Positions 43,333-46,213 of a stretch of DNA of 51,015 nucleotides are shown one piece after another. Made by a program: the position numbers and the translations under genes. Position 1 is the first letter of the stretch, and each line of letters begins with the position of its first letter. Location of the stretch: positions 1-51,015 of the forward strand of contig NJFT01000267.1 in assembly GCA_002221725.1 (NCBI GenBank), given 5' to 3'. The notes beneath the pieces are model-generated. The model saw nothing but the letters and a program-made list of their open reading frames with translations. It was not told the origin of the DNA and ran no database searches. Source of the DNA: Scedosporium boydii (Eukaryota; Ascomycota; Sordariomycetes; Microascales; Microascaceae).

Positions 43333-43454
43333 TCATTTCTTCATATTGTCAGGATGCCACGGACAAAAGCCCCGGTGAACACTATTGTCCTTCGCTAGAA
43401 TCTCGCGGTGGTCGGCGCCGCACTCGTAGCAGAACTCAAACTTGCATTTGGTGC
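43333..43454 (-). other. Distal alternative terminal exon of the RBR ligase (isoform B)
   Basis: It is preceded by CAACTAAAAC and a CAACAACAG acceptor. It continues the codon T|GC in the same phase as the proximal exon. It encodes TKCKFEFCYECGADHREI and ends FCPWHPDNMKK with TGA. The Cys pair FCYEC and the later His/Cys/His residues fit a complete RING2 tail. Confidence 0.8.
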
Positions 43455-46213
43455 CTGTTGTTGTCGGAAGATAATGAATGTTTTAGTTGGTGCTTCATGG
43501 CCTCTGGTGTGAAATATGTTCCGGGGAAAAGAGAGGAAGGCATCCCGAAGTAGAAAAGAGTAAAAGATAAAAAAAACAAAAGAAAGAAAAAGAAAGAGTG
43601 AAGAAAAATGTAGTTCGTGAAAGCTCGACTCCGTAACGAGTGGTGGAATCGAACAGGCAAAAGGCCATCGGGAGGTGGGAAATAACGAATGAATGTGAAT
43701 GAAGGACTTGGTCAGTCCAATAAAACGGGTCGAATCGATATCGCCGGAGAAGGATAGACGAGTGAGCGTCGTTTTCGAAACGAAGAAAAACTACGCCTCG
43801 TCCTCTTCTTCCAGCCCTTTACACTTGTAGCTGTGGCCTTTATACCATGGGACTGCGCAGCCCCAGCAGAACTCGTAGGCACACTTGATGCCTGTCCCAA
43901 CAAATCCGTCAGTATAAACCTTTTTGTAGAAGGGGAAGAAGGAGATCCACCTCTCATACGTCGCCTCACAACACCTGCCGAATCTTCGTTTCATCCACAG
44001 ACTCCAAAAGAAAACCACAAGAGCACACAAAAGAAAGTTGAAAGGGGATGTGTGATAGTGAGACCCGAAGGAGAAGGGGGGAGAAACAGCTCAGACGAGG
44101 CCCCGAAGAAAAGATGTTTACTCACACTTCATATGAGAGCTATACCTCCAAGTTAGTACCAATCCATAGAAGAAGAAAAGAAGAGATGAACAGAAAACTC
44201 ACCAGCCGCGGTTCTTCTCAATCGCCCATCCACACCCAGGACAAGGCTTCGTCGTATTCCGAATCGTAACCTTACTTCTCTCCTCCTCCCTCTTCCTCCT
44301 CGCCGCCACCCGCCTCGCCACCTCCACCGCTTTCTCCGCCCTCCTCCTCTCCTCCCTCTCACTTTCCCTCCTGTCCCTCATCATCCTCCTCATCCGCGAC
44401 GCCGCCTGCTCACCGGCCACGAGGCCCTGCGCCACGGCGCGGTCGGCGTCGATCTGCCTTCGTCGGCGAACGTCGAGCGGCGCGTCGCTCTCGAGCCGCG
44501 ACTTGAAGTTCTCCGGGTCGGCGAGGAGCCGGTCGTATTCTTCGCACGTTAGGTTCTCGTGCCAGGTTACGTTGTGCTGGAAGCAGGAGCGGTGGCCGCA
44601 GTGCAGGCAGGTTACGATGGGGTGGTGGGTGCTCGATTCGTGGATTTGGCCGGAGCCGCAGCCGGACGTGCACCAGATGAAGTTGGTGGCTTCGGACATG
44701 GCCGAACGGAGGGCGAGTTCTTCGTATCTGGGAGATGTAGCGTCAGTAGCTGTGAAGGATAGAGGCAAAGAAAAGAAGAAGAAAAAAAGTAAGGAAAATG
44801 CAAAACGTACCGCGAGAACGTGCGCTCATCAGCATACTTCTGAATATCAACGTACTCAAGATGCTCGCCGCACTCGGGGCAGTTAATCTCCGTCCACAGC
44901 TTATTGCTCAAGTCGATGCGGATAGCTGTCTGGACGCACTCGAGGCAAGTGGTGGGCGCGTGCTTGCAGGTGGTCGTGATGGAAGTGTTGGGGAACTGGT
45001 CAGGACCCTTGACTTCGGCGCAAACGATGCATTCCTGCTCATCGCTGCGCTCCGGGGCGATCGTTCGAGAGTTGGAAATAACCACACTGCCGTTGACGGG
45101 CTTCGTGTAGCGTTGGCCAAAACTGCGCGAGGGAAGTTACAAAAATACGTTAACGAAAAGGAAAGTAAAAATGGTAGAGAGTCTAGCGACTTACCTGTAT
45201 TCTTCAGGATCGACCTCGGCTCGAACCTTTGGCATCGTACGGCCAATAGACATTGCCTCCAAATCAGCCCGGGTATCGAGATCCGCCAAAGCACGAGCAA
45301 ACTCGCTCTTGGGCGTCCTGACAAGCGGCACGCGGAACGGATTCTCCGCACCATCACCCGATGGCATGCGATCGGCGTCACGACCCCGAGCATCGGTTCT
45401 GGCCCAGAACATACCATCTCGAGATGGCGAGGGGTCACCGAGAGCACCGCCGCGAACATCGCGTCTAATCCGAAACGGATTCTCTGGAGCATTTCCCGAT
45501 GGCACGTTATCACTGCCACGGGCACGGGCGTTGCTGTTGGTTAGGAACTGATCGCTGGTGTCATCCCTCAACTCCAACACACGGTTACCGCCAGGAGGAC
45601 GAAATTCGACGCGGAACGGGTTCATCCTCTGACCGTGCTCGTTAAAGATTCTTCTCGGTCCGCCCTCCGTCACGGGCGAAGTCTGGTCATCGTCCTCCAC
45701 AACTGTGGTACCCTCCAGAACATGATCCTCGCGAGATCGGTGGGTGTCATCGGAAAAGATAAGAGAAGGCGGGACCATACTGGACGTTTCACTGGCCGCA
45801 CTTTGATTCTCGAGGTCCTGACCCTCGACAACAGTGCTAGACGCTCTCGTCGTTGCCACAGCGGTAGATGACTCTCCGGTCTTGGCCCTCTCGGAAGTAC
45901 TGGGGAAACGGGGCATAGCAGAAGAAAAATCACTAGTCAAGGGAGTCTCGGTCCTCGTCATGAGTGGATCCACATCCCAAATGCTCTTGTTAGGAGCCTT
46001 GTAGGCCGAACCCGTCGTGCTGTTGGTGGTGGCTGGTGATGGCTCCGGGGCACTGATAGGACGGGTTGCAGCTAGACCCTTACCCTTGTTTGCAGCGAGG
46101 GTACCGTTGGCCTCGCTGACCTTGACGATGGAGATGGAAGCATCTGCACTGTCAACTCTCGTGATGGTGAGAGGCGGAGGCGGAGCCTTGGTCTTGACAG
46201 ATGGAGACGCCAT
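43333..46213 (-). CDS. RBR (RING1-IBR-RING2) E3 ubiquitin ligase with two alternative last exons
   Basis: Common exons are 46213-45195, 45122-44811, 44727-44203 and a 14-nt microexon at 44139-44126. They can join a proximal last exon, 43891-43791 (656 residues), or a distal one, 43454-43333 (663 residues). RBR ligases take ubiquitin from an E2 onto a RING2 cysteine before transfer. RING1 starts at Cys371 (CIVCAEVKG..CKHAPTTCLECV..CPECGEHL). The IBR follows (WCTSGCGSGQIH..CLHCGHRSCFQHN). A charged Arg/Glu helix (about 520-595) precedes RING2 (CPGCGWAIEKNRGC) with predicted catalytic Cys619. The two last exons give different RING2 ends, KCIKCAYEFCWGC or KCTKCKFEFCYEC. The first 340 residues are disordered, with three NPFR repeats. 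Confidence 0.92.
43791..43891 (-). other. Proximal alternative terminal exon of the RBR ligase (isoform A)
   Basis: It is preceded by TACTGAC, a good branch site, and a GGGACAG acceptor, and joins T|GC after the microexon. It encodes IKCAYEFCWGCAVPWYKG and HSYKCKGLEEEDEA with TAG. It aligns residue for residue with the first 11 positions of the distal exon. Confidence 0.82.
44126..44139 (-). other. 14-nt microexon encoding the RING2 core C-SHMK-C
   Basis: The acceptor is TACTAACTTGGAGGTATAG and the donor GTGAGT. The 14 nt complete TG|C (predicted catalytic Cys619), encode Ser-His-Met-Lys, and start T|GC (Cys624). Skipping it would shift the frame and remove the active cysteine context. Confidence 0.85.

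Follow-up and report, generated by a model that had tools for sequence, protein, structure and literature searches.

Two Homologous Terminal Exons Suggest Alternative RING2 Halves in an RBR Ubiquitin Ligase Gene of Scedosporium boydii

Introduction

Parkin and ARIH1/HHARI are E3 ubiquitin ligases of the RBR type. The gene analyzed here resembles them in carrying Pfam IBR, in having the RING2 catalytic cysteine within a GCxHM motif, and in yielding models that match RBR structures. It differs from them in that the second half of RING2 lies on two alternative last exons. The arrangement recalls the mutually exclusive exons of animal genes such as Dscam, which stand in tandem, are homologous, have the same phase and are used one at a time. 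Unlike those, the exons described here are terminal, each has its own stop codon, and they are found in a fungus.

Among fungi, differential splicing provides Aspergillus nidulans PGK and the C-terminally extended Ustilago maydis GAPDH with a form for peroxisomes (Freitag et al. 2012, as described in PMC3798809). These cases share with ours a single fungal gene from which splicing makes different C-termini; however, PGK and GAPDH gain a targeting signal, whereas here homologous exons would exchange half of a catalytic domain. A second parallel is Trichoderma Xlr2, whose gene model overlooked a 20-nt microexon that encodes a piece of an essential domain (PMC11121469). Our gene likewise has a very short exon within an essential domain that is absent from the gene model, but ours is 14 nt long and lies where the ligase has its catalytic Cys.

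RBR ligases, fungal C-termini made by splicing (PMC3798809, excerpt) and a functional fungal microexon (PMC11121469, excerpt) are thus each already known separately. Among the top results of searches of open-licence PubMed Central, we found no description of a fungal RBR ligase with alternative RING2 halves. In a Cladosporium fulvum survey, intron retention made up about 71% of events (PMC11694984, excerpt); against that background, conserved last exons that swap part of a catalytic domain would be an uncommon finding in a fungus. Our preferred reading, to which we assign a probability of roughly 85%, is an RBR gene whose two last exons are homologous and mutually exclusive, derive from an old tandem duplication and have been kept in the Sordariomycetes.

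Gene Structure

The RBR ligase gene occupies positions 46213-43333 on the minus strand of the window (the whole 51,015-base stretch of DNA that was analyzed) and consists of four exons followed by two possible ends. Exon 1 (45195..46213) holds the start codon and a long N-terminal region in which no listed Pfam family had its best stretch (E<=1), and its open frame extends to a GTAAGT donor. The reading frame runs across the 72-nt intron 1 into exon 2 (44811..45122), which encodes the RING1 region, including a cysteine-rich RING1-like stretch. Beyond the 83-nt intron 2, exon 3 (44203..44727) supplies the IBR domain, a long charged helix and the start of RING2, and ends at the TG of the catalytic Cys codon. 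Intron 3 (44202-44140, 63 nt) leads to exon 4 (44126..44139), a 14-nt microexon between a TATAG acceptor and a GTGAGT donor, all on the same strand. The microexon finishes the catalytic Cys codon with its third base, encodes Ser-His-Met-Lys, and provides the first base (T) of the next zinc-binding Cys. Retention of intron 3 would give the frame GGC TGG TGA, which ends in a stop.

Downstream of the microexon, still on the minus strand, an intron of 234 nt (43892..44125; donor GTGAGT, CTGAC at -21, acceptor GGGACAG) precedes the proximal terminal exon, exon A (43791..43891), which completes the Cys and continues with IKCAYEFCWGCAVPWYKGHSYKCKGLEEEDEA to a stop. The distal terminal exon, exon B (43333..43454), completes the same Cys and continues with TKCKFEFCYECGADHREILAKDNSVHRGFCPWHPDNMKK to its own stop; if exon A is skipped, the intron leading to it is 671 nt long. 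The 336-nt spacer between them (43455..43790) includes a long pyrimidine run and would be either the 3' part of the isoform A transcript or the end of the intron to exon B. Both exons begin with GC, either one completes the next Cys through the shared acceptor phase, and the spliced frames are open to the stop, giving 656 aa for isoform A and 663 aa for isoform B. One donor is therefore followed by two terminal exons, each with its own acceptor and stop, which is the layout of alternative last exons.

All of the exon coordinates, phases and lengths in the initial annotation of this DNA, together with its intron lengths of 234 and 671 nt and its 336-nt gap, held when the sequence was read again, and the spliced frames bear out its claim that the two exons share an acceptor phase and each end in a stop. 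It had also credited both exons with a good branch site. The branch-site consensus is CTRAY, and the CTGAC at -21 agrees with this claim for exon A, but not for exon B, where no CTRAY lies near the acceptor and the candidates, among them CTAAA and TTCAT, are weaker.

We scanned both strands of the window for an AG acceptor followed by a phase-1 Cys and x2-C-x4-C-x2-C-x4-20-H-x2-4-C. The full pattern matched twice, exactly at exon A and exon B. In 60 simulated sequences totaling 3,060,900 bases (order-1 Markov, one strand each) there were no matches to the full pattern and one to its core without the H and last C. On this comparison we reject chance open frames as an explanation for the pair.

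The Two RING2 Halves

The gene had been annotated as an RBR-type ligase, and matches to Pfam IBR, IBR_1 and IBR_2 in both isoforms agree with this. IBR (PF01485) matches in two stretches, with E-values of 9.2e-18 and 1.8e-18 for the two isoforms, and IBR_1 (PF22191) scores 45.3 bits in isoform A and 40.7 bits in isoform B. Toward the C-terminus, PF22191 (IBR_1) and PF22605 (IBR_2) lie over RING2 in both isoforms. The IBR thus lies between RING-type domains, of which RING1 is recognized by its cysteine pattern, there being no RING1 Pfam hit listed for either isoform. The GCSHMKC of both isoforms aligns with GCMHMKC of parkin, the GCxHM arrangement of the RING2 catalytic Cys and its following His, and the best solved relatives by sequence are, for both, parkin chains and then ARIH2 and others. 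None of the seven Pfam matches (E<=1) of either isoform was a Ubl, RING0 or Ariadne domain, and by its predicted domain content the protein belongs to neither the parkin nor the Ariadne subfamily.

RING2 zinc ligands follow a fixed order, which we used to place the two tails on the parkin pattern. In the parkin alignment, the catalytic Cys and its His fall at the junction of exon 3 and the microexon, in the part that the two isoforms share. From the alternative exons come two-thirds of the codon for the third ligand of zinc site 1, its complete fourth ligand, and the whole of zinc site 2 (C-x2-C, loop, H-x3-C). Exons A and B have the same phase-1 Cys and the same ligand order, with 54.5% identity over an 11-residue head. 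The initial annotation had them diverge completely after those 11 residues. This is incorrect; both tails keep the last zinc pair, H-x3-C, which had been overlooked. What does differ is the loop before that pair, which is twice as long in B (14 residues) as in A (7), and the C-terminal end.

The folds were compared in AlphaFold models of two homologs from Colletotrichum, P0055 (type A) and P0005 (type B). RING2 has four short strands in both models, and the B model adds two short helices (659-664 and 668-673) in the loop and over H-x3-C. Mean confidence was low (50.0 for A and 56.8 for B), with RING2 blocks at 74-86 in A and 65-83 in B. Whole-model fold searches gave low global TM-scores and large whole-chain rmsd values because the models are mostly disordered. 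Locally, the A model matched the parkin catalytic domain 9c5e with an rmsd of 1.8 over 52 columns and 44% identity; since 9c5e is the catalytic domain alone, this suggests where in the A model the match would lie. The 50 listed matches of the B model were mostly to whole RBR proteins, and there was no RING2-only match among them.

Proposed Splicing Choice

The gene anatomy, the open frames, the two tails at one locus in the window, the presence of both tails among many related proteins and the paralogous pair described below can all be read from sequence. Together they suggest that one gene gives two versions of an enzyme by a choice in splicing, and that both tails have been kept in related fungi. 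We infer the choice itself, the activity of both products as thioester-forming ligases, and an effect of the loop and C-terminus on the contacts of RING2. In this scheme, the donor after the microexon would reach acceptor A first, and joining to it would produce isoform A; skipping of exon A would let the same donor join exon B to produce isoform B. The isoform A message is not expected to undergo nonsense-mediated decay, because its stop would lie in the last exon wherever cleavage falls, before or after B. Given that A has the better branch site and B has a pyrimidine run upstream, a factor that represses A or favors cleavage after A could set the ratio of the two.

In either product, ubiquitin should be loaded on the one shared catalytic Cys. 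Contacts with acceptor, substrate or autoinhibitory surface could differ through the exchanged loop and C-terminus. A more far-reaching version, which we offer tentatively and rate at a little under even odds, is that this is a splice switch of the RING2 half older than the duplication behind the two Sordariomycete copies of the gene, that one and the same RING1, IBR and catalytic Cys receive either half, that the halves differ in chain type, substrate or autoinhibition, and that growth conditions select between them. If both forms are active, they would provide a natural comparison, in many species, between ligases that differ in half of RING2 and nothing else, and the role of its second zinc site and loop would be directly testable.

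A Paralog with the Same Exon Pair

The window's own genome (42.9 Mb) contains a paralog, L008 (C219:60820-61344), with 42.7% identity over 248 residues. It appears by eye to share the place and phase of the intron after exon 2, and in it exon 3 and the microexon are joined into one. The phase-1 junction of the window gene recurs there and is followed by an A-like exon starting at position 2161 (SQCLHQFCWSCNLAWSAVSSGHSTAC) and a B exon starting at position 2305 (IKCNHQFCWDCRHDMRAILREGNQFHSRRCPWHSDN), both with bounds set by eye and in the order found in the window, A-like and then B. The same tandem pair in a second gene backs the initial proposal of an exon duplication. In L008 the loop of the A-like exon is 10 residues long, and no stop closes the frame of this exon, which remains open through the spacer into B (L008:2161-2441). 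It may be decaying, or may yield a double-tailed protein.

Ten public proteins were found with L008 as the query. P0104 (Thelonectria olida) has a B tail with a 14-residue loop and P0106 (F. keratoplasticum) has an A tail with a 7-residue loop; both were put in the L008 clade on the sequence they share before the tail rather than on a separate tree of the ten hits. P0107 and P0110 end in an out-of-frame A exon, with 18 of 18 and 18 of 24 residues recovered, against at most 11 and 14 in shuffles. Of the other six (P0105, P0108, P0109, P0111, P0112 and P0113), those examined for a tail had no complete one. The L008 branch is long and its place on the tree is unsure. Because L008 carries the same pair and its relatives display both tails, the A/B pair appears to be old, and the simplest reading would be that the duplication of the tail predates that of the gene.

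Two further RBR-related loci in this genome each had one tail found after the same phase-1 junction. That of L009 (C44:53559-53768) is A-like with H-x2-C, and that of L010 (C361:7932-8153) is a C-x1-C variant. These single tails, like the fused microexon and the open, longer-looped A-like exon of L008, speak against the A/B pair being universal.

Tails in Related Proteins

A protein search with the RBR part of isoform B returned 101 proteins and one with the isoform A tail returned 41, of which two were new, for a total of 103 that we take to span several orders. These relatives are predicted proteins; DNA loci were read in the window's own genome. By strict patterns, 14 of the 103 have an A tail, 50 have a B tail and 39 have neither. 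The patterns demand the ligands and a loop of 5-9 (A) or 14 (B) residues, so the retention of ligands in these 64 tails is by construction. A loop of exactly 7 residues in all 14 strict A tails was not imposed. For the models, alignment A1 comprised all 14 strict A rows plus 14 tail-less rows, and alignment A2 comprised 20 of the 50 strict B rows plus 8 tail-less rows.

Fifteen of the 39 proteins with neither tail end exactly at GW. Since GW is the intron-3 read-through (GGC TGG TGA), the microexon was missed in these models, which explains why some public models of the gene are short (15/103). The catalytic Cys is absent from gene models that skip this exon. By eye, three of the 39 have an out-of-frame A exon at the end (P0044, P0059 and P0091) and three have an out-of-frame B exon there (P0087, P0096 and P0098). 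For the out-of-frame A exon, P0059, P0091 and P0044 recover 25, 26 and 18 of 26 residues, respectively, with shuffles at no more than 13.

Four more of the 39 (P0071, P0079, P0081 and P0095) have tails that look A-like by eye and depart from the ligand pattern. P0071 has a longer loop, P0079 and P0081 of the F. oxysporum group have H-x1-C, and P0095 from Gaeumannomyces has no H. The last two kinds of departure would fit a role for exon A as a regulatory decoy, one whose use cuts the mRNA short or yields a weak or dominant-negative ligase and so lowers isoform B. The proximal position and shorter length of exon A, and the lack of its own stop in L008, point the same way. However, the window's exon A retains the full zinc set and the RING2 of a type A homolog matches the parkin catalytic domain, and a decoy would have no need of a conserved RING2 half. 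We consider a decoy unlikely.

Over 25 residues, exon A of the window shows 48-64% identity with the 14 strict A tails; over 36 residues, exon B shows 41-67% with the 50 strict B tails. With the window included, the consensus is ikCrfeFCWgCxxxwxrgHnxxCrG for A and xkCkHeFCxeCgAdHrxIxxxDNsxHkxtCxxHPxn for B. The 11-residue head of window A is closer to A tails, at 74.7% identity vs. 52.0% to B tails; that of window B is slightly closer to its own type, at 63.8% to B tails vs. 57.1% to A tails.

These identities also bear on whether only one tail is made while the other persists in DNA as a silent relic. The weak branch site of exon B and the presence of at most one complete tail per public model would suit a relic. 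On the other hand, both window exons remain this similar to the strict tails (which were themselves picked by their ligands), and over such a span an unused exon would be expected to lose its frame or its cysteines. A silent relic is accordingly an improbable account. The initial annotation had named decay of one exon in relatives as evidence against its own proposal of two alternative tails. At the protein level decay is not the general picture, with 14 complete A and 50 complete B tails among the 103 proteins, and we reject it as a general rule on these counts and on the identity of both tails to their relatives; the four A-like tails that leave the ligand pattern are the part of that concern that stands.

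One Locus, Two Tails

We hand-picked 25 upstream comparisons by the tails of the proteins, 20 of them between rows with different tails, which demonstrate that such pairs exist and not how frequent they are. Those 20 pairs were 79.5-99.7% identical upstream of the tail. The closest was F. oxysporum Fo47 (A) with F. oxysporum f. sp. radicis-lycopersici (B), at 99.7% over 314 aa. Others were a JGI metagenome protein (A) with F. sporotrichioides (B) at 99.5% over 196 residues, F. piperis (A) with F. keratoplasticum (B) at 97.1% over 208 residues, and Tolypocladium ophioglossoides (A) with T. paradoxum (B) at 95.5% over 200 residues. The F. oxysporum copy, represented by the best pair and by P0096, is divergent (54.0% identical to the window gene and 45.0% to the paralog) and sits on a long branch inside Fusarium. 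P0096, from F. oxysporum f. sp. vasinfectum, contains RKCNYQF, with which the local exon A begins, and further along carries exon B out of frame, 17 of 19 residues of the latter being recoverable in a shifted frame; shuffles reached at most 9 and none of 200 did as well.

The tree of the shared part had 104 rows, one of 105 (P0100) having been left out for its 149-aa core, below the limit of 150. Its 32 unlabelled rows, P0087 and P0098 included, were not counted in the label test. Label A (18 rows) required 15 changes vs. a shuffled mean of 16.1, with 153 of 500 shuffles as low, and label B (50 rows) required 17 vs. 18.9, with 89 of 500 as low. All three label groups together gave 18 changes vs. 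19.9 for shuffles (29 of 200 as low). The window gene groups with Cephalotrichum gorgonifer at 98/99 support, a placement that points to the Microascales. Tail type clusters little on the tree, as expected if both exons are at one locus and each model records one of them. The annotated tail in this RBR family reflects the gene model as much as the gene.

It has to be asked whether lineages simply exchanged one tail for the other, the window representing a species that has both. Some clades are of a single type, such as the four close Colletotrichum rows that are all strict A on the tree, and to that extent exon turnover is supported. It sits poorly with different tails on upstream parts up to 99.7% identical, within F. 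oxysporum as well, with pieces of both exons in the single F. oxysporum model P0096, and with the slight clustering of labels. We regard turnover as very improbable. Tails of two genes mixed through annotation or assembly are scarcely credible, for although a paralog clade exists and the F. oxysporum copy is divergent, both window exons follow one donor on one contig, which largely refutes a mixture, and a mis-assembly would have to recur in L008 and P0096; mixing with the paralog in particular is rejected, as it is 42.7% identical upstream and itself has both exons.

Two features of individual Fusarium models are of separate interest. P0081 and P0089 share one F. odoratissimum locus tag, FOIG_03643, and diverge just after the microexon; one model has the A-like tail and the other reads into the intron, so the pair does not display both tails. 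In P0003, P0028 and P0061, a similar insert (e.g., KLIPVVLDFLLVAPLRLNPALDG) stands between the microexon and tail A or B, hinting at another donor 3' of the microexon.
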